A DNA stretch of 64,000 nucleotides, from the IMG/VR virus record IMGVR_UViG_3300038701_001167, positions 1 through 64,000 of that record; one strand, given 5' to 3'. Shown here piece after piece: positions 8,486-64,000 of the stretch; position 1 is the first letter of the stretch; each line of letters starts with the position of its first letter. The DNA comes from a virus. A model generated the notes under the pieces. The model ran no database searches. It had not been told where the DNA came from and was given only the letters and a program-made list of their open reading frames with translations. The position numbers and the translations under genes were made by a program.

Positions 8486-8488
8486 GAG

Positions 8489-8611: not shown

Positions 8612-8804
8612 AGAGAGCACTTTCGTAACCGTCATTGCCTTTGACCACGTCTTCCTTGGTATAGACGTTACCGCACATCTCGACTTCATCTGGCCAATCA
8701 TCCATGACTGATTCACCAAGATAGGCGTAAAGTTTTCCATCTTTCCTGCGCTGAGCTGCGAGATCAAAACCAGCGAGAAAGTGTTTTTTCATTTCTTCAG
8801 TCAT
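8604..8804 (-). CDS. Small acidic protein, unknown
   Basis: 66 residues starting MTEEMKKHFLAGFDLAAQRR and ending GYESALYA. Its start overlaps the 3' end of RNAP1 by eight bases, so it is probably coupled to RNAP1 translation. The sequence reads like a compact alpha/beta protein; no family known to me. Confidence 0.6.
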   Translation of the reverse strand: MTEEMKKHFLAGFDLAAQRRKDGKLYAYLGESVMDDWPDEVEMCGNVYTKEDVVKGNDGYESALYA

Positions 8805-49525: not shown

Positions 49526-49560
49526 TAAGGAGCCAGGATCAATCACCTGACTGCTCCTTA
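49526..49560. terminator. Bidirectional terminator at convergent ends
   Basis: TAAGGAGC-CAGG / CCTG-GCTCCTTA with an interrupted upper stem; it contains the stop of the leftward gene 49539-49856. Its right arm is also the conserved cassette junction described in the findings. Confidence 0.65.
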
Positions 49561-49856
49561 GATTCAATGAAAGTCATCACGCGGCGCTCAAACTCAGCTT
49601 GTGCCGCAGCCATGGCGCTATCCACATCGGGATAGGTATGATCTTTCATTCCGATATTAAGCGTGACGCCCAATTTACGTTTCACGCGAGGGTCAACAAT
49701 CTTTGTGATGTTAAAGTCGCTTGCCAAGAACCGTGGGGCGGCACTCCAATGCTCACTCGACGGTACAGACTTGCGCTCTGTGCGGTCGTCGTTCCAAACA
49801 TCAACTGTCAAAATGTCGTGCGACCATTGCAGTTTTTTGACCTGAACGTCAGTCAT
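49539..49856 (-). CDS. Cassette gene A (small protein, unknown)
   Basis: 105 residues from ATG 49856 with AGGAGG nine bases upstream (not from 49877, which lacks a site). Begins MTDVQVKKLQWSHDILTVDV and ends RRVMTFIESKEQSGD. Beta-rich first half, helical end. The 5' and 3' borders match those of gene 63472-63702 although the body is unrelated, suggesting an exchangeable cassette. Function unknown. Confidence 0.68.
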   Translation of the reverse strand: MTDVQVKKLQWSHDILTVDVWNDDRTERKSVPSSEHWSAAPRFLASDFNITKIVDPRVKRKLGVTLNIGMKDHTYPDVDSAMAAAQAEFERRVMTFIESKEQSGD

Positions 49857-49873
49857 CTCTGGCCCTCCTTGGT

Positions 49874-50209
49874 TCAAACTGGTGCGTGGTGCATGGTCAC
49901 ACCTTCGCTATGGGCAACATATGCCTCAGCTTCTTCCTGAGAGAAGAGGCCAGCTTTCAGATGTGTGCCGGTGTAGCCTTTGGCTCCAGGACGGAAGTAA
50001 TAGCCGTTCTTGCGAAGAAAGAATTTGTTGCCGGGATTGTATTTGGCCTTGAGTGTATCTTCATAACCATGCCACGCGATTCCAGCGTTAATGAGAGCTT
50101 CAGCCTGGGTGTTTCCAAGTCCAGAGTGACCTGGACCATCATTGATGACACAGAGCCATTTGTGTCCGTAGACATGACCGTCAAGAAATTTGATTGTTGG
50201 AGTATTCAT
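49874..50209 (-). CDS. Small protein, unknown
   Basis: 111 residues, ATG 50209 with AAGGA nearby. Contains FLDGHVYGHKWLCVINDGPG, NAGIAWHGYEDTLKAKY and a C-terminal EEAEAYVAHSEGVTMHHAPV. His/Gly/Tyr-rich; may be a compact nucleic-acid or metal-binding fold. Stop is directly followed by the cassette junction that provides the ribosome site of gene A. Confidence 0.62.
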   Translation of the reverse strand: MNTPTIKFLDGHVYGHKWLCVINDGPGHSGLGNTQAEALINAGIAWHGYEDTLKAKYNPGNKFFLRKNGYYFRPGAKGYTGTHLKAGLFSQEEAEAYVAHSEGVTMHHAPV

Positions 50210-50221
50210 GGTGGTTCCTTT

Positions 50222-50479
50222 TTATTGAACCGCTTCAATCACTTGTTCGATGAAGTAAGCACAAGCAGTCCATTGTTGTTCAGTATCGAATGATCTGTCA
50301 CGAAGGAAGGAAACACATCTTTCAAGAGAGGGCTGGTTAATCCTCCAAGAAATTTGAGATTTTCCTAAGTTCATGTAGGTATCCATGGCCATTTGAGTGA
50401 TGCCAATAAAGCCAACAACAGCACCAAAAAGAAAGCCTAACCCAAGACCAATCAGTGTGAATATAGAAGGTTCTTTCAT
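50222..50479 (-). CDS. Small membrane protein of the accessory island
   Basis: 85 residues from ATG 50479 (MKEPSIFTLIGLGLGFLFGA), with a single Gly-rich transmembrane span at about 6-30 and a Cys-containing soluble tail (SLERCVSFLRDRSFDTEQQW). The larger open frame to 50665 runs through the structured RNA and is not supported. Unknown; possibly superinfection exclusion. Confidence 0.6.
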   Translation of the reverse strand: MKEPSIFTLIGLGLGFLFGAVVGFIGITQMAMDTYMNLGKSQISWRINQPSLERCVSFLRDRSFDTEQQWTACAYFIEQVIEAVQ

Positions 50480-51048
50480 AGTTTTGATACCTTTTTCTGA
50501 TGTCCGATAATACAAGATTATTGGACATATAAGTGTGGTGAAGGGTGGGGCGCTTTCATACTTAATTGAACCAATAAAGCGCCATGACAGCTTTCTGTGG
50601 GGCCTGAGTCTGCCAAGGTGTATCGGCACCAAGGGATCGCTCTCCGATAAGAACCGGCCCTCCACGGACCGCTCAGGCTACCCAGAAAACTGTCATGGAA
50701 ACAAAAGACTGAATGAAAGTGCAGGCTCACATTGAGCTATCTCCAACCTCCGCGGTTAGCGGGTTAAGCAGGTAATGGGTCTCAGTGGTACGTGCATGAT
50801 ATCCTACACGTTCTTAAGAGCACCTTCCCTCGCAACCAGATCCACCTCCGTCGAGGTCGTCATCATCCGGTTCACAGTTCCCTACTGCACATTTATTTAG
50901 TCTTGGGGTTACTTACATTGGTTAAGGGTCATACGTGTGAAGCATCGACGCTTACTCCAGTTTTCCCCCTCGTGTGGTTAGTGTTGATTTTCACATCTTC
51001 AGTGTGACCGGCTGGGCTCCCCTCTATTTGAGGGGAGTCCTACCTGGT
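50480..51048 (-). ncRNA. Long structured leader or noncoding RNA
   Basis: 569 bases without a supportable gene. Stems, in order: TGTCCgATAAT/ATTATtGGACA (50501-50527); GGCGCTTT/AAAGCGCC (50549-50583); a nested element CATGACAG/CTGTCATG (50583-50590 with 50690-50697) enclosing GCCTGAG/CTCAGGC (50602-50608 with 50672-50678) and TATCGG/CCGATA (50621-50626 with 50644-50649); CTCCCCTC/GAGGGGAG near 51017-51036. Strand is assumed from the flanking leftward genes. Could be a 5' leader or a stand-alone phage RNA. No tRNA found. Confidence 0.5.
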
Positions 51049-51237
51049 TCAACCAAGTGGATCGTTTGAATCATTGGGCGTTTTATCGGTGACGCCTTGA
51101 TAACAAATCGATCCGATGAGTAGCAGACCGGCGATAGCACCGATCTGCACAATGATCATCCAAGCCATCGAGAGCACGTTTGAAACGAGCAACCCGATGA
51201 CGAGGAGATAAAGACCGATGACTGTTTTCCAGAGCAC
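51049..51237 (-). CDS. Small two-span membrane protein
   Basis: 62 residues, GTG start at 51237 (MLWKTVIGLYLLVIGLLVSN) with two hydrophobic segments (about 5-22 and 26-46) and a short polar C-terminus (GVTDKTPNDSNDPLG). The ribosome site is distant (AAGG), so translation may depend on coupling with the gene six bases upstream. Unknown role. Confidence 0.55.
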   Translation of the reverse strand: MLWKTVIGLYLLVIGLLVSNVLSMAWMIIVQIGAIAGLLLIGSICYQGVTDKTPNDSNDPLG

Positions 51238-51243
51238 AGCTGA

Positions 51244-51693
51244 TTAGCTGGCCTTGGAGAAGATCGACTTGCCACCAGCAGGCTTCGAAGCGGAAGCTTC
51301 AGCTTTGCCACCGAAGATCGATTTGCCCGAAGTGGATTCTGCCGGAGCTTCATCTTCTTCTGAGGTCTCGGGTTCAGTGCTGTCGGTGCCAACATCCGGT
51401 TCAGCTTCTTCTTCTGCTTCTTCCGGCTGAGCTTCAGTCTCAGGGGTCGGTTCCGGTTCAGCAGCAGGAGCAGGAGTGTTTTTTACTGCTTTCGGTGCAG
51501 TCCGGGTCGGTGCCGATTCAGGAGCAGCAACGGGAGCTGCAGACCGGATATCGATTGCAGCTGTGAGACCATTGGGTCCACGGCCAGCGGTGAAATCGAT
51601 CGAGAACTTTTGGCCTTCTGCGATGTTGATCTGGCTGTGCAGATACATTTCAACGGCCGAGTTGATCTCGTCTTGGTTCAGTGTGATTTGCAT
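51244..51693 (-). CDS. Protein with acidic Pro/Glu-rich linker
   Basis: 149 residues. A small N-terminal domain (MQITLNQDEINSAVEMYLHS, about 1-50), then a Pro/Ala/Glu-rich acidic region (about 55-120), and a C-terminal tail with two GKSIFGGK / GKSIFSKA repeats. Acidic linkers with short conserved tails are common in single-stranded DNA or polymerase partners, and the neighbours are RuvC-like and SSB genes, so a replication or recombination accessory role is plausible. Unknown. Confidence 0.65.
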   Translation of the reverse strand: MQITLNQDEINSAVEMYLHSQINIAEGQKFSIDFTAGRGPNGLTAAIDIRSAAPVAAPESAPTRTAPKAVKNTPAPAAEPEPTPETEAQPEEAEEEAEPDVGTDSTEPETSEEDEAPAESTSGKSIFGGKAEASASKPAGGKSIFSKAS

Positions 51694-51719
51694 GTGTTTT
51701 TCTTTCTTATTAGAATAGG

Positions 51720-52187
51720 TTAGAGAAGTTTCTCTTTGCCGTAGAGAGCCAACAAAGCAGCTTCGGCTCGTCCATCATCCTTCTTTCGGGAGAACAGATC
51801 AGCATTGGCTGGAAAGCGTTCAGAGGCAAGTTTGCGTGAACCATCTTTGTCTTTTCCAAGCTTGAAGTGCTTCTTCCAAACATTGGGTGTGGGATTGTGG
51901 AACTCATGACCATGGCCGATCAGAGCCATTCGGAGAGCTCCGTAACAATCACCGAAGCGGAATGCGCTGGAGATGCCTTGACCTTGGAAAGCCCAGACTT
52001 TTTCCAGTACAGCCATGCTCCTTGGTTCATCCGAAGACAGGAGCGTTCCTACCATGTGGCAGTTCAGTTCTGTCTTCGAATTGGAACCAGGCAAGATCGG
52101 CATGTCATGGACCTCAAGCGCCCATGTGTCGGAGTTCAGTAGAGCGATTGCTCCACTGAATCCTGGGTCTATGCCGATGATGAGCAT
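51720..52187 (-). CDS. RuvC-like Holliday junction resolvase
   Basis: 155 residues with the RNase H-fold resolvase layout: first acidic residue in LIIGIDPGFSGA (D7), second in MAVLEKVWAF (E62), third in KKDDGRAEAALLALYG (D137/D138). Expected to cut branched replication DNA before packaging. Starts by TGATG overlap with the SSB stop. Confidence 0.85.
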   Translation of the reverse strand: MLIIGIDPGFSGAIALLNSDTWALEVHDMPILPGSNSKTELNCHMVGTLLSSDEPRSMAVLEKVWAFQGQGISSAFRFGDCYGALRMALIGHGHEFHNPTPNVWKKHFKLGKDKDGSRKLASERFPANADLFSRKKDDGRAEAALLALYGKEKLL

Positions 52188-52936
52188 CAGCCGAAGAGTT
52201 TCTTCTTCGGAGTGGCTTCACCGGAAGTGCCTGCAGAACCAGGTGTACCGGTTCCTGAAGTGCCTGCACCGCCACCTTCAATGACTTGGAACTTGTTCAG
52301 ATCTTTGTCACCGAAACGGTTGGTCCATTCAGTCATCCAGACCGGATCTTCGATCTCCTGCATGTACTCGTTCACAGTGCGGGAAGTTTCCGGGTGCATG
52401 AACTTCACGATCTCGTTGATGGTACGAGACTCGTTGATCGGTTCATAGCGACCACTGTTGGTGTCTTTCTGGGTTTTGTTCTCGATCTTACGGAACAGGG
52501 CAACTTTGACCGGCTGACCGAGCATCGCAGTGATAACAGGAACTTCGGTCGGGACTTCACCCTGAGCTTCCTTGTTGTAGATTTTGACCATCTTGTTTTC
52601 CATCTCGACTTCAGCGAGGTGGGTTTCAGTGGTCAGCAAGCAGAGCTCATCAATGGTGGTGAAGCCCGGCATCGGACGACGGGTCTTGTTGTCGTTTTTG
52701 TCGATGTAGAAGTTTTCACCAGTCTTTTTGGTAACATAGACGGTTTCACGGACTTCCTTGCCACCGACGTCGAGGATCAGGGAGACGCCCTTGGCTCCAC
52801 CAGCAGAAGTGATGGCATATGCCAGCTTGACGATTGCATCATAGACGCCTGTGGGAATCGGATCGAAGTTGCCGCCACCGACGACGTCTTCTGCTTTTTC
52901 CATACCTTCAGTGGTGAGATTGGAAAACATACTCAT
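52187..52936 (-). CDS. Single-stranded DNA-binding protein (N4 gp45-like)
   Basis: 249 residues with an OB-fold-like core (FDPIPTGVYDAIVKLAYAIT; GVSLILDVGGKEVRETVYVT) and a Gly/Thr/Ser-rich flexible C-terminus ending KKKLFG. N4 SSB is needed for replication and also activates host RNA polymerase at late promoters through its C-terminus, so this gene probably links replication to late transcription. Preceded by a CACACCA leader. Assignment from synteny and pattern. Confidence 0.75.
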   Translation of the reverse strand: MSMFSNLTTEGMEKAEDVVGGGNFDPIPTGVYDAIVKLAYAITSAGGAKGVSLILDVGGKEVRETVYVTKKTGENFYIDKNDNKTRRPMPGFTTIDELCLLTTETHLAEVEMENKMVKIYNKEAQGEVPTEVPVITAMLGQPVKVALFRKIENKTQKDTNSGRYEPINESRTINEIVKFMHPETSRTVNEYMQEIEDPVWMTEWTNRFGDKDLNKFQVIEGGGAGTSGTGTPGSAGTSGEATPKKKLFG

Positions 52937-52951
52937 ATGAGTTTCCTTGTT

Positions 52952-52974
52952 TTGGCTTGAATTGGTGTGGTGTG
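52952..52974 (-). repeat. CACACCA leader motif upstream of SSB
   Basis: Sense reading CACACCACACCAATTCAAGC, 15 bases upstream of the SSB ATG and just before its AAGGA; two tandem units followed by a CAA-rich tail. Confidence 0.6.
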
Positions 52975-53706
52975 TTAGGCGGCTTTAGAGGCGCCGTAGT
53001 AGGACTTCAGGCGATCAAAGACGAGGTTGACATCGTTGTCGATGTAGAGCTCTTCCCGATTCCAGAAGCCAATGGGAGCACGCATCTTTTCACCAGGATG
53101 ATCCTTGGTGACACGGGTGGTGAAGACGTATTTGACGCCATCCTCTTCTTCTTCATCGGTGATGTTGAGAAGGGCGTTCTCGTGCTTTTTGAGCTTGGTC
53201 ACAGGCATTTGCTTGGTTCCAAGAATGGTGGTGAAGTCAGCTTCTACGCCAACTTTACCCACGGCACCTTTGATCGGCACCTTGGTCTCGTTTGTAAGAG
53301 TGGCTTCATTATAGACGGTGTCTTCGTGAGCCAGGATCACATAGTCCTTGGTTCCAGATTTGATAGCGTGAATGAAGTCACGGTAGAAGTTGCCGTAGTT
53401 GCCCCAGGCTTTCTGGGTGTCTTTGGCTGTTGCGACGTTCTGGCGCTCATACATCATCATCAGGAAGGTGACGGTATCGAGCACAGCACCGGTGATACCG
53501 GGGTTGGTTTCGATCTCCTGAATGAATTCCAGGATGTCGGTTGCATTGGAGATTTCTGCCTCAGCCGCGAAACGAGACTGGAAGGGAATTTCTTTGAGGT
53601 CTGTGTTGAGATAGACCATCGATTCCATCGGCAGGTTGCGAAGCGAACTGGATTTGCCAGTGTTCGGTCGGCCCATGATGAGAACAATGTTTTTGTTCTG
53701 GCTCAT
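52975..53706 (-). CDS. AAA-type ATPase (N4 gp44-like)
   Basis: 243 residues. Walker A GRPNTGKSS (about 12-20), Walker B GAVLDTVTFLM (about 73), and sensor-like DYVILAHEDT. This is the phage AAA/RecA-like ATPase commonly found beside SSB in this lineage. May load recombination or replication proteins on ssDNA. Upstream leader contains only a degenerate CAAATCAAG. Starts after ribosome site AAAGGA. Confidence 0.8.
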   Translation of the reverse strand: MSQNKNIVLIMGRPNTGKSSSLRNLPMESMVYLNTDLKEIPFQSRFAAEAEISNATDILEFIQEIETNPGITGAVLDTVTFLMMMYERQNVATAKDTQKAWGNYGNFYRDFIHAIKSGTKDYVILAHEDTVYNEATLTNETKVPIKGAVGKVGVEADFTTILGTKQMPVTKLKKHENALLNITDEEEEDGVKYVFTTRVTKDHPGEKMRAPIGFWNREELYIDNDVNLVFDRLKSYYGASKAA

Positions 53707-53777
53707 ACGATTTCCTTTGTTTTCTTGATTTGTTCTTCACGCAAAAACGCTCAGAGGTAAGATTGGAGAGACCTCAA

Positions 53778-55934
53778 TTAAGGGGTCTTCTCTTCGATCC
53801 GTTTTGCTGCTGTGACCAACACCGTGGACTTGAGCTCATTGATATCGAGCTTGTCCGTGAGCTTGTCGTTGAACTCGATGACACTGCGTTCAACCGTCAG
53901 GTAATCCATTCCGCTATCGACAAGAGCCAATGCGAACTTGATCATCTGATTGTTCCGGTTGCCGTTTGCCATACGTTCCGCGAACCAACGCTCAAGGTTG
54001 TCCAAGCTGGCCAGTTCTTTGTTCCGCTCATGGAAGGCATCGTTGCGGGATGTCTTCGGGATGAACGGCAGAATATCCACCAGCTTGCCATGGTTTATAT
54101 GATAGGTGCCTTTGGGATTGGTCATCCACTTACGGCTCCGTTGCATGGCTTGCTCATCGACCTTGATCGGGAGCCACTGAAGGAAGTTCTTGATGAACTG
54201 GTCAAAGTCTTCCTGGTCGAGATTAAGCTCATAGTTCATTGGGAAGATCAGGCGGAAACGGTGTTCTGTCTGCGTATGACGCTTGGTGGTGTACGTCATG
54301 AACGTGTAGTCTTCGAGCAAAGCATGGGTTTGATCCATGTCTGCTGTTCCGTCTACATCCACAACCAGGAGATTGAAGCCTGGAATGACATTGTCTTCAG
54401 AGCGGTGCTCATTCAGAAATGCGTGGTTTGCCCAATGAAAGCCATCCAACTGGGTCAACCTGTGAAGCTCATCAAAGGGAGCCTCATCTGCTGTATAGCC
54501 AGCAGCATAGTCGGTTGAGTAGGAGATCTTCACAGAGTTCAGATCAGTCTCTTTGAGGGACTCACCTGAAAAGAACTCGATCCCATCCGAAAAGGTTTTC
54601 CGCATGATGACGTTGTTCCGGTAACCCCAAGCGATTGCTAGACCCATGAGTTCGTTACGGGCAGTGGCACTCTTGGGATAGAACGGTAGCTCATCCACCA
54701 GATCGGCATGGGTGAGTTCCCGGTCCACGTCAGCGACGTGCTTTGCAAGCTTCATGTGAGGCTTGTCCCGTGAGAGCAGTTCTTTGAATGCTTCCCCTGA
54801 CTCTTCCACCAGTTTGATGGCTGAGTTGAGGTGATCCATGGTGACAACAGAGGACTCATCAATGAAGGCAAATGCCCCTGCAAGCTTGAGAGCTTTGAAG
54901 TACCGGTGCATCATCTCTGCACGACGAATGCTGTCGTACCGAGGCATCATGTCTGCCAGAGTTTCACAGTGGATTTTGTACTCAAGTAGAGCGATCCCCT
55001 CATCATCAGGCAGTTCCATAAGCCAGTTATGCTTGTCTGGATCAGCCAGATAGGTGAAATGAGTGGACCACTTTGCGATATCTGAACCAGTCGCAGGATT
55101 GATCAGTTCTTGATAGATCTCGGCCGCAGTCTTTTCCTGGGCTGCTCGTTTGGGTTTACCAAAAGCGAAGAGTGAGCGACGGGCATAACCGGTCTCAAGC
55201 ATTGAGTAGAATGCTTCTTCAATCTTGGCTCCATCTAGAAGCTTGTCAGGAGAACCGAACCAGAAAGAGTTGGCGGGTGTTTTGCCATGAATCTCTTCTG
55301 TCCGCTTGTTGTCGGCTCCGTTCTTGGTGAGCTTGTTCTTGATCAGGCCCTGGTCATAGAGTTCCAGGTACGTGGTCATTGCCTCTATAACATGGCCCTG
55401 ACCGAACTTGAGACCGATCTCATCGATCTGCAAGTTGATGGAACCAATGTCAGCAAGCAGAAGCTTTTGACGTACCTGTTTGATGGCAGCTTCAGAGCCA
55501 CCATCAAAAGAGAACGGGTAGGCACCGGTGCTTTTGAACTCTTTCTCCAGACCATCATATTCGTCTTGAGCTTCTGTCTGGTTCCGAGCAGAGCGGCTCA
55601 TGGCATGACGCCACAAGGTCCGTTCAGCAATGATGGGAAGGGTCTCTGTGGTGAAGCGATCACGGAAGCCTTCAAGGAATGAGTTCTCCATGAGGCCTGT
55701 AGAGTAGCCTTTGCCGGCGCCAGATGTGGCGAGAGCAATAGCATAGCAGTTCACAGGGATTTCACCGCGGTCTTTGGTGGAGACACGGGCTCGCATAGAA
55801 GAGCCAATGGTGGTGAGATAATAGGCTGCGATCACACGAAAGAAGTGACGGTCGTTGTTCTGCAGGCGAGCGCAGAGAACGTCAGTGATCTCTTCGATAG
55901 CCGGGTGGTGGGGAACTTGGTCGAAATCAACCAT
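53778..55934 (-). CDS. Primase-like / AAA fusion (N4 gp43-like)
   Basis: 718 residues from ATG 55934 (the in-frame ATG 55985 would overlap the upstream gene by 59 bases). The N-terminal half has a P-loop-like ALATSGAGKGYSTGLMENS and the DUF3987-type helicase pattern; the C-terminal part (about 490-600) has an AEP-like primase set, NLLVVDVDGT, then TQTEHRFRLIFPM. N4-lineage gp43 is considered a primase or primase/helicase. Essential for lagging-strand synthesis. No zinc finger is visible. Confidence 0.72.
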   Translation of the reverse strand: MVDFDQVPHHPAIEEITDVLCARLQNNDRHFFRVIAAYYLTTIGSSMRARVSTKDRGEIPVNCYAIALATSGAGKGYSTGLMENSFLEGFRDRFTTETLPIIAERTLWRHAMSRSARNQTEAQDEYDGLEKEFKSTGAYPFSFDGGSEAAIKQVRQKLLLADIGSINLQIDEIGLKFGQGHVIEAMTTYLELYDQGLIKNKLTKNGADNKRTEEIHGKTPANSFWFGSPDKLLDGAKIEEAFYSMLETGYARRSLFAFGKPKRAAQEKTAAEIYQELINPATGSDIAKWSTHFTYLADPDKHNWLMELPDDEGIALLEYKIHCETLADMMPRYDSIRRAEMMHRYFKALKLAGAFAFIDESSVVTMDHLNSAIKLVEESGEAFKELLSRDKPHMKLAKHVADVDRELTHADLVDELPFYPKSATARNELMGLAIAWGYRNNVIMRKTFSDGIEFFSGESLKETDLNSVKISYSTDYAAGYTADEAPFDELHRLTQLDGFHWANHAFLNEHRSEDNVIPGFNLLVVDVDGTADMDQTHALLEDYTFMTYTTKRHTQTEHRFRLIFPMNYELNLDQEDFDQFIKNFLQWLPIKVDEQAMQRSRKWMTNPKGTYHINHGKLVDILPFIPKTSRNDAFHERNKELASLDNLERWFAERMANGNRNNQMIKFALALVDSGMDYLTVERSVIEFNDKLTDKLDINELKSTVLVTAAKRIEEKTP

Positions 55935-56892
55935 GGGTGTACAAATCCTTCTGGGTGCAGATGGGAGCAGCGTCACAGTAGCCACATGCTTTCACGACAC
56001 CGGGAACCTCGATCACAACTCCCTTCCCACCTTTGTCTTGCATAAAGCGGTAGGCTTGGGCTTTGTCGTCGAAGTTCTTGGTGGATCGACCATCTGTTTT
56101 GTTGGGATTGGAGTAGTATTTCCAAACTGTTTCGCTGCGCCAAAGAGCTTCTTCAGGACAGAAGGGGAGCTCACTTTCAGGCTTGTCGGCATTCATTTCC
56201 AAAGAACGAATACGCTCTTTGATCCACTTCTCTGTCTCCTCAAGAGACATGAGCTGGACACGATGTTCCTTCACACGTTGAGACGGGTAGTTCGGGTTGG
56301 CTTTGGCCATTCCCCGCTGCCAATCAGTAAAGATGAAGTTGATCGTGATGTAATCGGAGGTGATCTTTTCTGGGTGGATCCAGCGATAAATGCTGCCTTG
56401 GAGACAGTAATCTTCTTCTTTGGAGCCATTGAGCCAGGTGTAGACTGAAGTGGTCTTGAAGTCGTTCAGCTCGCCATCGACAACAATGTCGAATTTGCCT
56501 GAGATGATGTATCCCATGATTTCACGAGAGCCACGAAGCTCAAGGTAGACAGGGAGATCTCCATCTTCGACGGTCTCGGGATTGATCCTTACTCGATCGA
56601 TGACTTGCTGGGGATATCCCAGCTTCTGCATGGCGTCTTGATAGGAGGTTTTCCAAGACTGCTCGATACCGTCATGGATCGAATGACCCAAGCGAGAAGC
56701 AATGTAATCGGCAAGGTCGGGTGTCTTTTCAACCTTCTCTGTCAGCCGTTCTTTCAACAGAATCTGTCGAACAGGCTTGAGAAGGGATGTGGCTGAAATA
56801 GACCGATTGTCTGGTGTAAAGTCGTAGCCATCAGATGCCAGCCAGACGGCCATGGGCAGGCCGATGCCTGTGATGTTGGTGATTTTTCCCAT
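55927..56892 (-). CDS. PD-(D/E)XK nuclease with Cys cluster (N4 gp42-like)
   Basis: 321 residues. Nuclease core SGKFDIVVDGELNDFKTTSV (about 131-150) supplies the D...D/E-x-K acids; later Cys residues FCPEE and a terminal KACGYCDAAPICTQ make a four-Cys set of Cas4/RecB type that could hold an Fe-S cluster. Likely 5'-3' or end-processing exonuclease for recombination. Start is behind a CACACCA leader. Confidence 0.8.
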   Translation of the reverse strand: MGKITNITGIGLPMAVWLASDGYDFTPDNRSISATSLLKPVRQILLKERLTEKVEKTPDLADYIASRLGHSIHDGIEQSWKTSYQDAMQKLGYPQQVIDRVRINPETVEDGDLPVYLELRGSREIMGYIISGKFDIVVDGELNDFKTTSVYTWLNGSKEEDYCLQGSIYRWIHPEKITSDYITINFIFTDWQRGMAKANPNYPSQRVKEHRVQLMSLEETEKWIKERIRSLEMNADKPESELPFCPEEALWRSETVWKYYSNPNKTDGRSTKNFDDKAQAYRFMQDKGGKGVVIEVPGVVKACGYCDAAPICTQKDLYTHG

Positions 56893-56914
56893 GAGTGTAT
56901 TCCCCCTGGCTCTA

Positions 56915-56937
56915 TGGTTTGATGTGCTTTGGTGTGA
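56915..56937 (-). repeat. CACACCA leader motif upstream of nuclease gene
   Basis: Sense reading TCACACCAAAGCACATCAAACC, 22 bases upstream of the ATG at 56892; one of the copies nearest the consensus of 24310. Confidence 0.6.
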
Positions 56938-56987
56938 TGGTGGTTGGTCCTAAACCCCAGATAGGGATGTGACCAACCACCGATCGA

Positions 56988-57356
56988 TCAGCTTTTCACT
57001 GTTTCTGGAACAGCGGAAGCTTTAGAGAAGTCTTCCTGCGTGGTGTAAGCAAGCGGGAAGATGTTTAGGAGAACGATGTCTCGGAGTTGATCCGGAGTGA
57101 CATCGTTCTCCTTATTCAAACGTGCCATGACACCCTGGTTCGCCTTGTCGAGATCGTCTCGGAGAATGTTGGGTGACGATGTGATCAACATGATGTTGAC
57201 CGTGCGCTGTTTGAGTTGGTCATCTTTTGAGTAGATGGCCTGAGCTGCAACAAGGTGAAAATATTCCTTCACCTCGCCTTGTGGGGTATCAGCAGCTTTG
57301 CTCGATGCTTTCTTGTTTTTTGGAGCTGTGTCCGTTCCTGGATATAGAGGATTCAT
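56988..57356 (-). CDS. Small replication-region protein, unknown
   Basis: 122 residues. Lys/Ser/Ala-rich N-terminus (PKNKKASSKAADTPQGEVKE), then a compact domain (QRTVNIMLITSSPNILRDDL; DQLRDIVLLNIFPLAYTTQE). N4 gp40/41 position. Start overlaps the DNA polymerase stop (TAATG). No fold recognised. Confidence 0.65.
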   Translation of the reverse strand: MNPLYPGTDTAPKNKKASSKAADTPQGEVKEYFHLVAAQAIYSKDDQLKQRTVNIMLITSSPNILRDDLDKANQGVMARLNKENDVTPDQLRDIVLLNIFPLAYTTQEDFSKASAVPETVKS

Positions 57357-59965
57357 TAAGCAGCTTTCTTTCCTGTTTTGTTGAGGTCATCGAGATGTTC
57401 CGAGATGCAATCAAAGATCGTGTCATTGCTTGCATGGTTCGGGATTTCCTTCTCGTAAGCCCATGAGGGCCAGAAGATGGAGAGCTCCCCACCCAGCTTT
57501 ACCTGGTCATGTGCAATAGCAGGATGTTCTTGCCACTGTACGGCTTTAACCAAGTGCTCATTGACATATTGAACCACGTCAATGTCATCTGGGATGAGGA
57601 AGTATTGCGCATCATGGATATGCGCTATTGGCCGGATCAGCAGGCGATAAGGGCTTCGACGCACCTTGCCCATAAACTCAGTGCTTGCGCGAGAGTTCAG
57701 GAGACACCAGGACTGTCCTAGTGCATTGCCTGCTGTCCGACCTTCGGCCGCAGCTTCATAGGGCGTCTTGGACGTCCCTCTGATGACCTGATGGAGTAGG
57801 GGAGTCCGAACCCTCAGGCCAAACGCTGCCGTGATATAGCCAGTATGTGAAGCCTCTTCGAGCTGCTCATCTACCCATTCATCACTCACTCGGTAGAGTT
57901 CATGATATCTGGCTTCGATGCTGCGAGCTTCCTCTTCAGAGAACCCGCATTTCGCCATCAGGGTGATGTATGTACCCTGATAAGTTAATGCGAAGGTTGG
58001 CGTCTTGGACGCCTGCCGAAGCGGCTTGTATTTTCCAGCAATGGAATTGATGCTCTCAACAGTGTCTTCGATATCTGGCATCTGCTCCCGGAAGTAGGAG
58101 AATGCCCGCATCGAGTGACCGTCGTACCCATCCGTGTAGACCTTCAATTTGTTGGGGTCTTTGGTGGTGAGAGCAGAGATCCGGTCTTCAAGTGAAGCGA
58201 AATCCAGTCCAATCATCAAGTAGCCCTTTGGCGCACGGAAACAGTCCTTGATCAGTTTCGCGTACTTGGATCCGGTGGCTGGGATGGTCTGAAGATTGGG
58301 CCCGGATGAACTCAACCGGCCAGAGACAGTGCCTCCGAGGTTGAAGTTACCGAACAGGTAGTAGGCGCCATCAGATGCTTTGATGGCTTCTTCCATTGCA
58401 GGAATGAACGTCCCATAGATTTTGTCCACGGCTTTGAAGTCGAGAACAGCATCCAAGAAAGCTTTGATGGCTGGCTCTTCTGTGAAAGCTTTGAGCTTCT
58501 CCAGAATTTCCGCACCAGTGGCTGGCTGTTTGGACTTGGTTCGTTCAATGACTGGCAGGCCCAGTTCTTCGTAGAGAAGACGCTGAACCTGGTCTGGCGA
58601 GTTTGGATTAAACTCCTTGTCGAAATTACCAGACGTGTAGGCTCTCACCTTGGTTCCGGCTGCCTTACGGTTGAGCCATGCTTGATAGCGTTCTGTTTCG
58701 GCTTCCTCGTTCAGTTTGTGAACAAATTCCCGAACCAGTGCATGACCATGGATCCGCTTGAGCGAGTCGTCCCGGTCCACTTCCAAGAGCAGCTTGGTCT
58801 CTTTGACCTTGTCCATGTCCAAAGGCATGCCCGTGAGCTGCATTTGAATGATGTCCAAGATCGCTGGCTTGAAGAGTGTCTCGTAGATGTGAAGCTGCTC
58901 ATCAGCCACCATGGTGGCATAGTGCTTGTGGTAGACATACCAGGTGGCACAGGCGTCAATGAGGTTGTATTCAAGAAGCTCAGCCATCGGAATTGACCGA
59001 ATGTCTTTGATCTCTTCAACCGCATAGTTGCCGGTGAATTCTTGGCTCTGGTCCTTGAGGCCGAGGCTGTTGCCTGCACAGGAGTTTGTTGCCAAGTAGG
59101 TGATGAGCTTGGTGTCTTCCCAGTTCTTGAGCATGACGTCCATGCCATCGAGCAGACCTTCCGTATCCAAGAGATCGGACATGAAAAGCTGGTAGATGAG
59201 AATGTAGACGTCATAGCTAATGTTGTGGAAAATCAACTTGTGCTTCATCTCGTGGAAGAAAGTCCGAAGCATTTCCCGAACAGTTTCCGGGTTGGGCCCA
59301 CGATCAACAGGGAAAGCAATCCCTTCATGCTGGTTCCAAGCAAACGAGATCGTACCAATCCCGGCTGAATAGTGCTTCAGTGAGAAGGCCTCGATGTCAC
59401 AGGTGAGGTCACACTGCATGTCCAGCAGCTTGGCGAGCCATGCAGCGATATCGACCGTAGAGGTGGGGTAGGCGGCATGCTTGAGGATTGCATGCCCTGG
59501 TTCCTGGTATTGGCCGATACGATGATCCCAGAGAGCCTTGAAGGCATCCTGAATCTTCAAACGGGTCGGCTCAGGATTATAGAAGACCTGGCGATAGTTT
59601 GGAATGAAGATGACGTTGAACCTTCCTTGCAGGCTCTCCGGGTATTTGTTGGGCAGAACGTATCCTGCATAGGCTTGGGCTTTCTTCACACCGGTGAGGG
59701 TCTTGAAGTAATCCCCATCTGTGACCATCAGGTACTCTGTTCCGATGGTTGTCAGGGCAGGTAGGAGCTCATCGAGGAACTCCTTTTGGTCAGCCACAGA
59801 TGTTTTCTTACCAGTGATGTGCAGCTGGTAGGCCACCACTTCTTCTGGCTTGAGGCCGCTTTCCCCGAAATACTCTCTGACCATTCCATCCTTTTCGAGT
59901 TTGGGAGCCAGAAAGCAGATCGGGAAAGTTGACGGCTGAGTGTCGGTGAAAGTTTGGTATCGCAT
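57356..59965 (-). CDS. Family A DNA polymerase with 3'-5' exonuclease (N4 gp39-like)
   Basis: 869 residues. Proofreading exonuclease acids in CDLTCDIEAFSL (Exo I), HNISYDVYIL (Exo II) and YNLIDACATWYVY (Exo III); polymerase motif A MIGLDFASLEDRI, motif B RQASKTPTFALTYQGTYI and motif C HIHDAQYFLI. No 5'-3' exonuclease domain. Main replicative polymerase. TGATG coupling with the upstream gene. All key residues present. Confidence 0.95.
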   Translation of the reverse strand: MRYQTFTDTQPSTFPICFLAPKLEKDGMVREYFGESGLKPEEVVAYQLHITGKKTSVADQKEFLDELLPALTTIGTEYLMVTDGDYFKTLTGVKKAQAYAGYVLPNKYPESLQGRFNVIFIPNYRQVFYNPEPTRLKIQDAFKALWDHRIGQYQEPGHAILKHAAYPTSTVDIAAWLAKLLDMQCDLTCDIEAFSLKHYSAGIGTISFAWNQHEGIAFPVDRGPNPETVREMLRTFFHEMKHKLIFHNISYDVYILIYQLFMSDLLDTEGLLDGMDVMLKNWEDTKLITYLATNSCAGNSLGLKDQSQEFTGNYAVEEIKDIRSIPMAELLEYNLIDACATWYVYHKHYATMVADEQLHIYETLFKPAILDIIQMQLTGMPLDMDKVKETKLLLEVDRDDSLKRIHGHALVREFVHKLNEEAETERYQAWLNRKAAGTKVRAYTSGNFDKEFNPNSPDQVQRLLYEELGLPVIERTKSKQPATGAEILEKLKAFTEEPAIKAFLDAVLDFKAVDKIYGTFIPAMEEAIKASDGAYYLFGNFNLGGTVSGRLSSSGPNLQTIPATGSKYAKLIKDCFRAPKGYLMIGLDFASLEDRISALTTKDPNKLKVYTDGYDGHSMRAFSYFREQMPDIEDTVESINSIAGKYKPLRQASKTPTFALTYQGTYITLMAKCGFSEEEARSIEARYHELYRVSDEWVDEQLEEASHTGYITAAFGLRVRTPLLHQVIRGTSKTPYEAAAEGRTAGNALGQSWCLLNSRASTEFMGKVRRSPYRLLIRPIAHIHDAQYFLIPDDIDVVQYVNEHLVKAVQWQEHPAIAHDQVKLGGELSIFWPSWAYEKEIPNHASNDTIFDCISEHLDDLNKTGKKAA

Positions 59966-60474
59966 CAGTAGAGGATCCGGCTTGAGAGATAATACTGGAG
60001 CAGTTGTTCGGTCTTCTCGAACTGGCTCAGCAGCATCGGGTTATCTTGGAGGGTCCAAGCAACAGGTCTGGTGCGTTGTAAGGAACCCAGCTCAGGCAAA
60101 ATCATTCGAACTGCGTTTGGTAGAGCATCCCTGACATCCTGTTGGTTAGAGCAACCACGCAGAACGACGGAGAGACCTTGCCGAAGCCTGGTTTTGTCTC
60201 TCTGGAACTCATCGATGGATTTGGCGAGGCTCTCGCCAAGTTCATGAAGAGAGGGATGTAGAGGAAGCTTCTTGGTAGTCCGTTGCTCTTTGATAGAGAG
60301 CAGGCTGTAGAAGCGACCTCCAAAAAGAAAGCCCTCCCGATTGTTGGAGAGCTCAGCGTTTTGTTGAATGATTGTCTCGATTTCCCGATTGAACATCAGG
60401 GCATCGGCTTCTCCGATACCGTCAATGATGCGGGTGAGATACTCATTCTGCAGCGAGGGAGTTGGTTGTGGCAT
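59965..60474 (-). CDS. Replication-region protein, unknown
   Basis: 169 residues from ATG 60474, AAGGA ten bases upstream; the start lies 32 bases inside the helicase gene. Mostly helical (NEYLTRIIDGIGEADALMFN; LHELGESLAKSIDEFQRDKT), Leu/Gln-rich. N4 gp38 position. Unknown, perhaps a helicase or polymerase partner. Confidence 0.65.
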   Translation of the reverse strand: MPQPTPSLQNEYLTRIIDGIGEADALMFNREIETIIQQNAELSNNREGFLFGGRFYSLLSIKEQRTTKKLPLHPSLHELGESLAKSIDEFQRDKTRLRQGLSVVLRGCSNQQDVRDALPNAVRMILPELGSLQRTRPVAWTLQDNPMLLSQFEKTEQLLQYYLSSRILY

Positions 60475-61798
60475 GGTAATCTGGTCCTTGGTACTTGTAG
60501 GGGAGGTCCCCATAGAAGAAGACCTGTGAAGTGGCCCTGGACGCAGCGACGAAGAGCATACGAGCAACCATCTCTGCATCGTGGCAGCAGCCGATATTGC
60601 CCAGATCAACGAAGACCGTTTCGTAGGTGCTTCCTTGAGACTTGTGGACAGTGCAGGCTTCCTTGCCGCGAAGATCGGCCATGAAGTTTTTCAGCTCGAA
60701 ATACCGGCCCCATTCTTTACGCTTCTTGAGCACTTTGAGTGTGGCAGCCACATGAGCAGGACGAACGGCTACTGGGACTTCCACTGGCTCCATGAAAGAA
60801 GCACGAGGAGTGATCCCAAGGTTTCGGTATTCGATTTCTTGGCCGTCCGAAGTGACATCAGCATACCCAAACTTGTAGATTTGAGGATCAACACTGTGGA
60901 CGTAGACTTCCCGTTCCACGTTGAGAACCAGTTTGCCACGGGCAAAAGTTGTGGCAACGACGAGCTGGTCTCCTTTAACGAACTCCTTGGGCAATCCGCG
61001 GATTTCACGGATGTACTCATTATAGTCGCTGACCCTGTTGTTGCTGTAGCAAAGGATACGAGCAGAGTCGTTTTGCTCCAGGAAGTACTCGTTCATCTTC
61101 TCTTCCATCTGGGTAGGATTGAGGAACTGAATGGCTGGAGCATTGGGACGGATACGGTAGAACTGCTCTGTTTCCACGGTTTCTCGTAGCTGCTTACACA
61201 GGTCGACCAATGCCGGTGTGTTGGCATTACGGACAGGCTGTGTGAGGTGGACAAAGTAGTTTGGATCCACGTTGAGATAGACCGGTGAGATCTCTTCTCC
61301 GATAGGGGAGAGCTGAGACTTGTCCCCAACGAAGACGATCTTGCTGTCGACCACATGCTTGAGAATGATCTCGTAAAGCTCTGTGGAAATCATCGAAGAT
61401 TCATCGATGAACAAAATGATCTGACGATGTGTCTTGGTGTTGTGAGATGTCTCAATCTTGGTCTTGCCGGACTTGTAATCGTCCCAGACTCTCAGACCCA
61501 AGAAAGAGTGGATGGTTTGAACAGGCTGGTTCACAGACCGCTCAAGCACCTCTCCAGCCTTGTTGGTGGTGGCTGTGAAGTGGATGTTGTAGGGGACTGA
61601 ATCAATTCCCATGATACCACAGGAACGCTCATAGGTTTGCATGAGATCGTTGCTGAGATAGTTCATGAGGAACGTCTTGCCGACACCGGCACCACCAGAC
61701 AGAACGAAGGTGGAAGCGTCAGATACAAGAAACTCAAAGAAGGCATCGACGGCCACCTGCTGATCTGCAGTGAGTTGTGCTTTGGTAGGTGTAGGCAT
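60443..61798 (-). CDS. SF1 (Dda/RecD2-like) DNA helicase (N4 gp37-like)
   Basis: 451 residues. Motif I SGGAGVGKTFL (K41), motif II ILFIDESSMI, motif III GDKSQLSPI, motif IV region LTQPVRNANT, motif VI VHKSQGSTYETVFVDL. The Dda/Pif1-type set. ATG 61798 with AAGGA seven bases upstream. Unwinds template and possibly removes bound RNA polymerase ahead of the fork. Comes after the small gene 61808 by nine bases. Confidence 0.92.
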   Translation of the reverse strand: MPTPTKAQLTADQQVAVDAFFEFLVSDASTFVLSGGAGVGKTFLMNYLSNDLMQTYERSCGIMGIDSVPYNIHFTATTNKAGEVLERSVNQPVQTIHSFLGLRVWDDYKSGKTKIETSHNTKTHRQIILFIDESSMISTELYEIILKHVVDSKIVFVGDKSQLSPIGEEISPVYLNVDPNYFVHLTQPVRNANTPALVDLCKQLRETVETEQFYRIRPNAPAIQFLNPTQMEEKMNEYFLEQNDSARILCYSNNRVSDYNEYIREIRGLPKEFVKGDQLVVATTFARGKLVLNVEREVYVHSVDPQIYKFGYADVTSDGQEIEYRNLGITPRASFMEPVEVPVAVRPAHVAATLKVLKKRKEWGRYFELKNFMADLRGKEACTVHKSQGSTYETVFVDLGNIGCCHDAEMVARMLFVAASRATSQVFFYGDLPYKYQGPDYHATTNSLAAE

Positions 61799-61807
61799 TG
61801 TGTGTCC

Positions 61808-62089
61808 TTAGGCTGCTTTGCGCTTTTTGACTGGGAGCCAGACAAGACGACCTTGCTCGGTGGTGTAGTCACCTTCCGAGAGCTGAATATCTCGCCAGTA
61901 GGTTCCGGATTTGCTGGTGGAGTTTCCGTTGGGAGCAAGCTTGATGAAGGTTTTTCTGACCTGAGCAAAAAGCTCATGGTTTCGGTGGAAGAGGGGTGCT
62001 TCGAAGTATTCCCCGTTGCGACTCATCAGAGCATGCGAATCAACTATAGGGGTGAAGAAGTTTGAGATGTGTTCAACTTTAGAGGACAT
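61808..62089 (-). CDS. Small protein leading the replication operon
   Basis: 93 residues; ATG 62089 with GGAG seven bases upstream. Sequence MSSKVEHISNFFTPIVDSHA, an NGEYFEAPLFHRNHELFAQV segment and a basic end, VKKRKAA. Ribosome site is next to a degenerate CACACCA copy (CCCCACCAAATC). Unknown; compact beta/alpha. Confidence 0.65.
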   Translation of the reverse strand: MSSKVEHISNFFTPIVDSHALMSRNGEYFEAPLFHRNHELFAQVRKTFIKLAPNGNSTSKSGTYWRDIQLSEGDYTTEQGRLVWLPVKKRKAA

Positions 62090-62257
62090 TTTGGTCTCCT
62101 GATTTGGTGGGGTAAGTAGTATCTTTTGATGTAAGCAAGAATAAACTTTAAATAGTTTTCAGTACGTTAGTATAATCTGGTGTGGTGTGATGCGATTTAA
62201 CGTGACAGCACGTCATACGCTGTGTCAACTTGACCTCGGGAAAACTTGGAGCATGAT
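62090..62257. promoter_or_regulatory. Divergent regulatory gap before parA-like gene
   Basis: 168 bases between leftward replication genes and the rightward ParA-like pair. TATAAT at 62171-62176 is a plausible -10 for the ParA-like gene, with only a weak -35. A CACACCA family motif in reverse orientation (CTGGTGTGGTGTGA, 62177-62190) overlaps the expected start region and could be an operator. GTGACAGCACGTCA (62211-62215 region) forms an imperfect palindrome. Confidence 0.5.
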
Positions 62258-62968
62258 ATGCCGGTACTTACCTTCGCATCGTCTAAAGGAGGGGCAGGGA
62301 AAACAACCTCTGCAATCATCTTGGCGACGACACTATGTCGTGACCACAAAGTGTGTCTGATTGATGCTGATCCAGCCAAACGATTGATGGGCTGGTCAGA
62401 AAAGGGGAAGCTTCCTCTTCGTCTTGAAGTCATGAGCACTCGTGGAGAGAAGCACATCCACGAAGAGATCGAGGCAGCCAAAGAACGGGCTGAGTTCGTG
62501 ATCATCGATTTGGAAGGTGCAGCAACTCGCCTGAACGCATTTGCTATGGGAGAAAGTGATTTGGTCATCATCCCGATGGGAGATGAGCAGCAGGACGCTG
62601 AGGGAGCCATTGAGACAATGTCTGAGCTGGCTCTGGAAGCTCGTCAGATGCGTCGGGAGATCCCGGTACGCATCTTGTTTGCTCGTACTCAGGCCGCGGT
62701 TAAATCGCGTCTGGAGAAGTCTTTGAATGAGCAGGTACGTGATAAGGTAGGAGCATTTGCCACAGAGCTTCATCGCAGGACTGCATTCTCTTCACTGCAC
62801 AACCTTGGTGGTTCGCTCTACCAGATGAATACGAATGAAGTGACTGGTGTGGCTAAGGCCATCGCCAATGCAGAGCTGTTTGCAGAAGAGTTGAAGAAAG
62901 ACCTGAAGGTGATCGATCGTATGCGCAAGTCACCTCGCAAGATCAATGGGGAGATGAAGCATGCCTAA
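62258..62968 (+). CDS. ParA/VirC1-like ATPase
   Basis: 236 residues from ATG 62258, GGAG six bases upstream; the in-frame TTG at 62246 is not needed. Deviant Walker A SSKGGAGKTT (K10 and K15), A' LIDADPAKR and Walker B FVIIDLEGA: the ParA/MinD class that segregates DNA or positions complexes on the nucleoid. N4-type lytic phages do not usually need one. It is one of only two genes facing right in this region and has its own promoter candidate. Confidence 0.88.
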   Translation: MPVLTFASSKGGAGKTTSAIILATTLCRDHKVCLIDADPAKRLMGWSEKGKLPLRLEVMSTRGEKHIHEEIEAAKERAEFVIIDLEGAATRLNAFAMGESDLVIIPMGDEQQDAEGAIETMSELALEARQMRREIPVRILFARTQAAVKSRLEKSLNEQVRDKVGAFATELHRRTAFSSLHNLGGSLYQMNTNEVTGVAKAIANAELFAEELKKDLKVIDRMRKSPRKINGEMKHA

Positions 62969-63212
62969 GGCGATGGATTTTAAGAAACTGGATCAACTGA
63001 AAGAGTCAGAGCGTCGTGAACTTGAACGGGGACGTTGGAAGTCTCGTGACATCAATCCAACTGTGCAGATGTCTATCCGGATAGAAGAGGAAGAGTATCT
63101 TCGCTTCAGGGCTCTATGCAAAGCAGAGCGTCGAACCAATGGTGAGATGCTTATTCACTTGATGAATGCGTATCTGTCCACCACCGAGGAGCGAACGGAA
63201 CAACCCCGGTGA
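62961..63212 (+). CDS. Ribbon-helix-helix protein, partner of ParA-like ATPase
   Basis: 83 residues, ATG overlapping the ParA gene's end by eight bases, with GGAG upstream. Basic N-terminus (KLDQLKESERRELERGRWKS), then a beta strand TVQMSIRI and two helices (EEEEYLRFRALCKAERRTNG; EMLIHLMNAYL), the ribbon-helix-helix layout of ParG/CopG/Omega-type partition or autorepressor proteins. Would bind a palindromic operator/centromere, perhaps in the gap upstream of parA. Confidence 0.78.
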   Translation: MPKAMDFKKLDQLKESERRELERGRWKSRDINPTVQMSIRIEEEEYLRFRALCKAERRTNGEMLIHLMNAYLSTTEERTEQPR

Positions 63213-63261
63213 TGGACAGAAGGGAGGAGTGCTCCAGGTGTACCTGGTGACGTCCTCAAAG

Positions 63262-63291
63262 CCTGACCGGGAAAGGAACGAACCGGTCAGG
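63262..63291. terminator. Terminator between convergent genes
   Basis: CCTGACCGG / CCGGTCAGG, 9-bp perfect stem, 12-nt loop, followed rightward by TATCTTT. Overlaps the stop of the leftward gene 63287-63475; would serve both directions. Confidence 0.72.
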
Positions 63292-63475
63292 TATCTTTAG
63301 AAAGAGAGCCATCGCTCTGGCTCTCCATATGCTTTAAATCCTGTACGGCTTTTTTCCGAGACCAGTATTCTTTATAAGCGTGATCAAGCTGTAGCTTTGA
63401 CTTCTCTAACTGTACTTCAGCCCATGTAGTCTTGAGGCGAGACCATGCTCTTGATGTGATGGGAAATTGCATCAT
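63287..63475 (-). CDS. Small helical cassette protein
   Basis: 62 residues, ATG at 63475 overlapping the upstream stop (ATGA). MMQFPITSRAWSRLKTTWAE then a charged helix (LEKSKLQLDHAYKEYWSRKK). Ribosome site is the GGGGAGCAG of the cassette junction. Unknown. Confidence 0.58.
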   Translation of the reverse strand: MMQFPITSRAWSRLKTTWAEVQLEKSKLQLDHAYKEYWSRKKAVQDLKHMESQSDGSLSKDT

Positions 63476-63702
63476 TCTGACTGCTCCCCGGATTCAATCG
63501 CTTCTTTTATTTTGACGCGCGTGTCAGATGCAAATTTCATGGTCGCATGGAGTTCGCCCGCATAGGCGTGTCTTTGTGCAAATTCAGCGTCCCGCGCCAA
63601 AGTTCGTAAGACACCGCGTAGCCGTTCAATCTCGGCCATCAACTCAGCCTCGCGCGGCGCCGGTGGCAGTTTCACGTCTTGGCGTGGCATGGGGTCAAGC
63701 AT
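63472..63702 (-). CDS. Cassette gene B (small helical protein)
   Basis: 76 residues from ATG 63702, AGGAGG nine bases upstream; starts MLDPMPRQDVKLPPAPREAE and ends IKEAIESGEQSE. Helical, Arg/Glu-rich (AEIERLRGVLRTLARDAEF). GC-richer than the replication genes beside it. Its two borders are almost the same as those of gene A at 49.5 kb, though the bodies differ. Probably acquired. Confidence 0.65.
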   Translation of the reverse strand: MLDPMPRQDVKLPPAPREAELMAEIERLRGVLRTLARDAEFAQRHAYAGELHATMKFASDTRVKIKEAIESGEQSE

Positions 63703-63922
63703 CGCTCTGGCCCTCCTTGGATTCACAGTCAACATCGCCTACGAGGCGCGAGTTTTTCGGCATCAGCGCGCAGTACCCCACCTCGCGTATCAGGTTGGCT
63801 GCATCGTTTCGTAAAGGCTCATCGCTGATCCACCAGCGCCGAAAGAAGCCGCGCCAGCCCGTGCGCTCAACTGCCATGTTGTGAAGAATACAAAGCGCCC
63901 GCATTTGCTGTTCTCGGGTCAT
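63695..63922 (-). CDS. Cassette gene C (small basic protein)
   Basis: 75 residues, ATG 63922 with GGGGAGG five bases upstream. MTREQQMRALCILHNMAVER then FFRRWWISDEPLRNDAANLI; ends CESKEGQSDA. Aromatic/basic centre. GC-rich, member of the overlapping cassette string. Unknown. Confidence 0.6.
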   Translation of the reverse strand: MTREQQMRALCILHNMAVERTGWRGFFRRWWISDEPLRNDAANLIREVGYCALMPKNSRLVGDVDCESKEGQSDA

Positions 63923-63999
63923 TCTGCCTCCCCGGATTCACTCATTGCGGCGTCCCATCCAGCGTTGAAACCCATAACGTAGGGTCTATCGCTTTTCAT
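63919..63999 (-). CDS. Partial or short cassette gene at window edge
   Basis: 26 codons visible (MKSDRPYVMGFNAGWDAAMS, then ESGEAE and stop), ATG at 63999. Overlaps the next start by ATGA and ends in the same ESGE junction as genes B and A. It may extend beyond the window. Confidence 0.5.
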   Translation of the reverse strand: MKSDRPYVMGFNAGWDAAMSESGEAE

Positions 64000-64000
64000 C

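Follow-up and report, generated by a model that had tools for sequence, protein, structure and literature searches.

Conserved start-codon junctions as probable exchange boundaries of small-gene cassettes in an N4-like phage and siphophage-type contigs

Why do small genes with unrelated bodies begin and end with versions of the same short string? The question is raised by an N4-like phage, IMG/VR virus record IMGVR_UViG_3300038701_001167 (72,475 bases), of which the first 64,000 bases are the stretch analysed here and are called the window; the remaining 8.5 kb of the record, beyond the window, were also examined. The initial annotation proposed that small minus-strand genes in the window are cassettes, bounded by junctions that contain a ribosome site, and that they can be swapped at these conserved edges by short-homology recombination. 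We find this junction family between unrelated genes in several phages, with reshuffled gene order, homology blocks limited by the boundaries, and a near-identical cassette in the N4-like phage and a siphophage-type contig. The junctions are probably conserved boundary sequences at which small-gene cassettes were exchanged while translational coupling was kept. Swapping at conserved edges is upheld by the recurrence of the junctions, the new gene orders and the blocks that start and stop at boundaries, while the short-homology recombination is something we infer.

Junctions and cassettes of the window phage

The shared boundary module consists of a core, TGAATCC(RR)GGAG, and interchangeable tails, and combines the end of the upstream gene, a ribosome site and the next start codon. 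Within about 20-25 nucleotides (nt), one junction accommodates the final codons of the upstream gene with their stop, as well as the Shine-Dalgarno sequence (GGAG), a spacer and the downstream start codon. The window phage carries a four-gene minus-strand array, C-D-B-E (cassettes are lettered), at record positions 64,146-63,287, which is longer than initially described, and a lone minus-strand cassette, A, at 49,856-49,539 (Table 1). The genes overlap at C/D, D/B and B/E, leaving no intergenic space.

Direct inspection of the sequence located the strings where the initial annotation had placed them. CCAAGGAGGGCCAGAG is exact at 49872-49857(-) and 63720-63705(-); at 49.86 kb the ATG follows immediately, and at 63.70 kb CG comes in between. 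The gene-end strings GAATCTAAGGAGCAGTCAG and GAATCCGGGGAGCAGTCAG begin at 49565(-) and 63495(-), respectively, and the related string at 63.92 kb is GAATCCGGGGAGGCAGAATGA, at 63939-63919(-). Protein comparison agreed that A (105 aa, ending ESKEQSGD) and B (76 aa, ending ESGEQSE) have unrelated bodies, and stop and start codons visibly overlap in the sequence, each junction encoding both the upstream protein end and the downstream ribosome site. Two junctions had gone unnoticed: TAAGGAGCAGTCAGAATG, which precedes gene C at record position 64158(-), just beyond the window, and a degenerate junction at 63326(-), which ends the array. ATGGAGAGCCAGAGCGATG closes the array after gene E, with no gene of note after it.

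The same junction DNA is read in different frames. One gives E-S-(K/G)-E; in another, seen before gene A and after cassette R of contig G004 (described below), the TGA serves as a stop. The AA/GG change in the core, moreover, alters the encoded residue. Thus, the nucleotides rather than the peptide have been kept. From the overlaps, the downstream cassette genes are predicted to be translated by coupling. No sigma-70-like promoters were found within 62,900-64,000.

Taken singly, the strings are weak evidence, because the window holds 3 matches to the 16-mer at up to 3 mismatches where 0.67 are expected, a number also attained in 1 of 100 shuffles, and GAGCAGTCAG with 1 mismatch gave 4 matches against 8.43 expected, with no excess over chance. 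These counts are near what a chance likeness of ribosome sites would produce. The comparison of start regions speaks otherwise: among 93 such regions (25 nt, from the predicted genes of the record), the two longest common strings, of 16 and 15 nt, join cassette genes, and of the 13-nt common strings one joins cassette genes and the other joins two other predicted genes. Similarly, the core, tail 1 and tail 2 yielded 36, 20 and 20 matches in 13 records, compared with 4, 0 and 0 for reversed-pattern controls, counts that describe rather than prove since most of these records were chosen for holding matches. As independent recurrence in the arrays of other contigs also contradicts it, we give chance likeness a practically negligible probability.

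Arrays and exchange edges in other contigs

The junctions also occur outside this genome, in phage contigs where both the gene bodies and their order are different. Pattern scans of viral contigs identified seven IMG/VR contigs with junction arrays between other small genes (G001 to G007, which are L005, L009, L012, L016, L018, L019 and L020 in that order; G000 denotes the window phage). L005 and L012 (G001 and G003) represent one phage, being 99.96% identical over 4,934 bp. Two additional contigs, L065 (G008) and L069 (G009), contain tail 2 only. The array contigs accounted for 4 of 14, 7 of 14, 7 of 27, 8 of 20 and 7 of 21 stretches in five pattern scans, where the count of 8 includes L069 and L076, one contig with tail 2 only. 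The other stretches mostly resemble chance matches, as judged by a clustering script only and, for tail 2, also by a boundary check of 16 sites.

Array order differs among the contigs. Where 'a' denotes an anchor gene, the order is a-C-F-G-H-I-K in G001 and G003, a-M-N-F-G-H-I-K in G002, a-F-G-H-I-K in G005, H-I-O-M in G006 and a-P-Q-R-S-T-U in G004; in G007, gene a is followed by an unresolved stretch and then V-W-X-Y-Q. Consequently, C, M, Q and the H-I pair have varying neighbours. The C-terminus of the anchor gene product varies with the following gene (KKQKEQSDG, KKQKEGQSDG, QKEQSE, KK or KPKKAK), and G008 encodes, by eye, a distant relative of it that ends KKQKEGQSDG. G003 carries terminase, portal, RecT-like and replication genes, and G004 carries a tape measure protein and a phage-type integrase, which indicates that the group is siphophage-type and at least partly temperate.

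Each array contains 3-7 junctions. Nearly all copies lie at start codons, with GGAG 5-10 nt from the start, as would be expected if the string were a signal for translation or regulation, comparable to the start-associated sequences of cluster K mycobacteriophages, and were kept because the ribosome or a factor needs it, with exchange as a side effect. Such a signal would not account for core and tails that vary and swap, for the several boundaries that are coreless, or for conserved bases outside GGAG that have no evident pairing partner. Nor would it account for junctions with nothing after them: gene-less relics end arrays in the window phage (63326 and 49565), G004 and G007, two of them with a broken ribosome site. 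The relic of G004, GAATCTAAGCAGCAGTCAGATT, has lost both ribosome site and start; that of G007 is GAATCCGGGGGGGCAAAAAG. We therefore regard this explanation as distinctly improbable.

Homology blocks were compared on the array strand with a BLAST limit of 1e-5. Between the window phage and G001 this leaves just two matches, a 234-bp block of 98.3% identity (4 differences) and a 33-bp stretch of junction. The longer one spans a single cassette from junction to junction, starting in the AAGGAG before C and stopping in GAATCCGGGGAGG after C; downstream of C lies D in the window phage and F in G001. Across the 363-bp H-I block, G001 and G006 do not differ in the gene bodies, and their three differences all fall in the last 13 bp, which are junction. 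Two of the three differences in the 1003-bp block of G001 and G005 are the AA/GG of the junction core.

Because near-identical cassettes sit in different neighbourhoods, exchange edges can be read to the base. Across seven records, 30 of 38 distinct block ends fall within boundary intervals that cover 10.1% of the arrays. The intervals (+/-3 nt) were listed by hand from array gene starts, and the count omits blocks shorter than 60 bp (junction-only), all G003 rows, and 20 end rows at outer array or contig edges. The binomial probability of 3e-23 assumes independent ends, which these are not. When each edge is represented only once, by an end picked by hand, the intervals take in 13 of 16 against 1.75 expected, and none of 200,000 random placements reaches 13. 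As the intervals were drawn by hand from gene starts, these tests show that edges lie at cassette boundaries and do not in themselves separate targeting from selection for whole genes.

Several observations weigh against exchange at the junctions. The array carriers are all metagenomic contigs, in which assembly chimeras cannot be fully excluded, and cassette C is the only one of the window phage found elsewhere, C being the one cassette for which relatives were sought. Several working boundaries have no GAATCC core, and 4 of the 30 inside ends lie at starts with neither core nor standard tail. Eight of the 38 ends are outside the intervals (four on the far side of the anchor region, two in G006 where the other contig has a junction, and two in G007 after gene a), and since junctions resemble one another, alignment ends are pulled into them. 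Unbroken identity at the crossover points, read by eye, extends over only a few to about 12 nt. G001 (8188-8828) and G006 (2278-2917, array orientation) also share a 641-bp block, 98.75% identical and inverted relative to the arrays, which is apparently another exchange in the same phages; its edges lie near gene starts that have no junction motif.

Finally, edges at gene boundaries are also expected under random (illegitimate) joining followed by selection. In that case genes would be joined at any point, joints that damage a gene or lose the ribosome site would be eliminated, and the junction strings would be passengers travelling with their genes. The short crossover identity and the joints without the motif are likewise consistent with random joining, which leaves unexplained the 10-16 nt beyond the ribosome site that unrelated genes have in common at both edges, the concentration of within-block differences in the junction, and the gene-less relics at array ends. 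We consider it unlikely, and favour exchange at conserved junctions.

The junctions might instead be the remnant common ends of an old tandem duplication whose genes have since diverged. The 24 tail-trimmed cassette proteins form 23 families (Q occurs twice), and phmmer finds the Q pair only. Two short weak matches among the bodies, B-H (50% over 20 aa, E 0.003) and C-Y (47% over 17 aa, E 0.045), would fit duplication; no other likeness was detected among the 24 besides these and Q-Q. The bodies range, by eye, from CxxC-rich to helical, and duplication does not explain blocks common to otherwise unrelated phages, so that we hold it to be very improbable.

Database comparisons gave little indication of function. 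For 10 proteins, including four cassettes of the window record plus C, Pfam returned nothing above its thresholds. In PHROGs, A, B, D and E had no match at E <=0.001, and 10 other proteins had weak matches only (E <=0.1). Paired CxxC motifs, noted by eye, occur in cassettes M (L019:3868-4029), R, S and T (G004) and X (G007), which suggests small zinc-binding proteins. M and T, the two CxxC cassettes searched, had no family match in PHROGs.

Tail 2 is also found in settings other than the arrays. In G009 (L099:12627-13300), GGAGG(G/T)CCAGAGCGATG, with no GAATCC core, precedes the start of each of four consecutive small genes. One of the four tandem copies has a mismatch, and three of the genes that lie before these starts end EGQSDA, EGQSDG or EGQSDVE. 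Single exact copies of GGAGGGCCAGAGCGATG lie at gene overlaps in L064, L066, L067, L068, L073 and L077, where the upstream frame ends in EGQSD plus 0-3 residues; L073 seems unrelated to the others. These copies could reflect wider use of the same tail, or convergence.

A different element of about 75-100 bp contains a CCTGCCGGAYGCAGG hairpin, and most copies have a terminator-like stem after it; the element was observed at L096 ~2464-2583 and at 8 further places in G001, G003, G004, G006, G007 and G008. There are 1-3 copies per siphophage-type contig, directly after the array in G006 and G007. It scores 30.9 bits against the Rfam anti-hemB family, under the cut-off of 49.5.

Genome context, searches and known systems

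The window record is assigned to an N4-like phage because of its matches to a virion RNA polymerase, DNA polymerase, primase and exonuclease. The primase and exonuclease each match their own PHROG family, and the other features are listed in Table 1.

Table 1. Cassettes, junctions and selected genes of the window phage (window positions)
Feature	Position	Strand	Evidence or remark
5' junction of cassette A, TGAACCAAGGAGGGCCAGAGATG, tail type 2 shortened	49854..49876	-	Sequence; contains the TGA that ends the upstream gene
Cassette gene A, 105 aa, last of its run	49539..49856	-	No match in Pfam or PHROG
3' junction of A, GAATCTAAGGAGCAGTCAGGTG, relic	49544..49565	-	Sequence; only an 11-codon frame after it
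Cassette gene C, 75 aa, record 63919-64146, extends past the window	63919..64000	-	95% aa and 98.3% nt identity to the L005/L012 gene
Junction C/D, GAATCCGGGGAGGCAGAATG, core and tail type 4	63920..63939	-	Sequence
Cassette gene D, 75 aa	63695..63922	-	Reading frame
Junction D/B, GAATCCAAGGAGGGCCAGAGCGATG, core and tail type 2	63700..63724	-	Sequence
Cassette gene B, 76 aa	63472..63702	-	Reading frame
Junction B/E, GAATCCGGGGAGCAGTCAGAATG, core and tail type 1	63473..63495	-	Sequence
Cassette gene E, 62 aa, last of the array	63287..63475	-	Reading frame
Degenerate array-end junction, GGAGAGCCAGAGCGATG at 63326-63310	63310..63334	-	Contributes to an 8-pair hairpin, 63304-63325
Virion RNA polymerase, 3429 aa, N4-like hallmark	39037..49326	+	PHROG 2206
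N4-like DNA polymerase	57356..59965	-	57% identity to the phage N4 enzyme
Sak4-like single-strand annealing protein, candidate exchange partner	52975..53706	-	PHROG 124
Single-strand DNA binding protein	52187..52936	-	PHROG 743

Directly upstream of the cassette array in this N4-like phage, just outside the window, the record encodes a Rep_3 plasmid-type initiator (record 64230-65223, L047:1231-2224; Pfam Rep3_N and Rep3_C). Four iteron-like repeats at the locus are spaced by exactly 21 bp, and a fifth precedes the gene. A distant match to the initiator was found in only 2 of 50,697 phage records. Initiator and repeats may provide plasmid-like replication of the window phage.

A 15-kb segment of the window had no megablast match in the 50,697 phage records. 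Queries of 200 nt (junction-gene-junction) and 35 nt (junction) gave only short partial phage matches, those of the 35-nt query being short matches at E=4 only, including HK620, HK629, HK630 and phage 21. As annotated isolate phages thus gave no convincing junction, support for the family comes from metagenomic contigs. Neither the C nor the Q protein had a phage match at E up to 1. Anchor gene a had no match in plasmids and was found in 0 of 385 genomes from the class of Asticcacaulis, an empty result that in itself shows nothing. The junction pattern occurred in 14 stretches among 84,980 species genomes, about the number expected by chance on our own estimate, and none of these stretches has at least 4 junction-like sites. 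Literature searches did not find a description of these junctions.

The concept of boundary sequences is known already. In the part of the source cited, two models of phage mosaicism are set out, and the boundary-sequence model is credited to Susskind and Botstein 1978 and Clark et al. 2001 (PMC3233612). According to that model, homologous recombination in lambdoid phages acts on short conserved strings where genes meet, and yields mosaic genomes whose edges lie at gene boundaries (PMC3233612). The junctions conform to this concept, in that a short conserved sequence borders unrelated genes and coincides, within the hand-listed intervals, with the edges of exchanged modules. They differ from the lambdoid strings, as far as the cited part describes those, in overlapping both genes and including the ribosome site and start codon, and in that one cassette is common to an N4-like phage and a siphophage-type contig.

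Similar, too, are the start-associated sequences (SAS/ESAS) of cluster K mycobacteriophages. These are short AGGAG-containing strings, repeated just ahead of the start codons in different gene families, and the cited passages state that such repeats could be recombination targets (PMC3203893). According to those passages, the 13-bp SAS consensus is GGGATAGGAGCCC, whereas the junction core and tails constitute another sequence, and SAS occur in 11-19 copies over half a genome, about half of them with 17-bp inverted repeats, essentially in cluster K only (PMC3203893). In contrast to SAS as presented there, the 3-7 junctions form compact arrays with interchangeable tails, and exchange edges have been mapped onto them.

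In Citrobacter phage Mordin, a 26-bp GGAG-containing repeat lies upstream of 8 small-gene starts; it has another sequence, its role is stated to be unknown, and exchange is not part of the passage cited (PMC4611695). The mobile regulatory cassettes (PeSL) of T4-type phages, as cited in part of PMC4503421, are repeated intergenic elements tied to gene shuffling between phages. PeSL, by that account (PMC4503421), comprise a promoter and stem-loop between genes, whereas the junctions overlap coding sequence and, as noted above, no sigma-70-like promoter was found at 62,900-64,000. Unlike integron cassettes, the overlapping array genes leave no room for an attC site, and the integrase of G004 is of phage type; no search aimed at an integron integrase was made. 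What looks new is this particular family of junctions, together with the movement of its cassettes between an N4-like phage and siphophages.

A possible route of exchange and its meaning

We propose that exchange would begin from many cassettes that start and end with versions of one string. In co-infecting phages, different cassettes could be joined at a junction through the pairing of short identical stretches, for instance by single-strand annealing or by template switching. The joined product would keep the ribosome site and the overlapping stop and start, and would be selected because stop, ribosome site and start remain in register. Annealing proteins occur in both partner types, Sak4-like in the window phage and RecT-like in G003. 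We infer that the junction sequence itself drives exchange and that these phage annealing proteins perform it.

As a broader and tentative idea, possible and in our view rather doubtful, the junctions may constitute a shared plug-and-play format, through which lytic N4-like phages and temperate siphophages from one habitat draw on the same pool of small genes and trade them with each other. The standard junction, with upstream stop, ribosome site and start, would allow a cassette to be expressed at once in its new operon. The system would be integron-like and operate with neither integrase nor attC, using annealing proteins that act on junctions of 10-25 nt.

These arrays bear on an old question, discussed in the cited part of PMC3233612, whether phage mosaicism arises by recombination targeted to boundaries or by random joining filtered by selection. 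They provide a natural set in which junction-bearing and junction-free boundaries can be compared within the same phages. The findings also suggest a simple route by which very different phages may pass on small accessory genes that are ready for translation.

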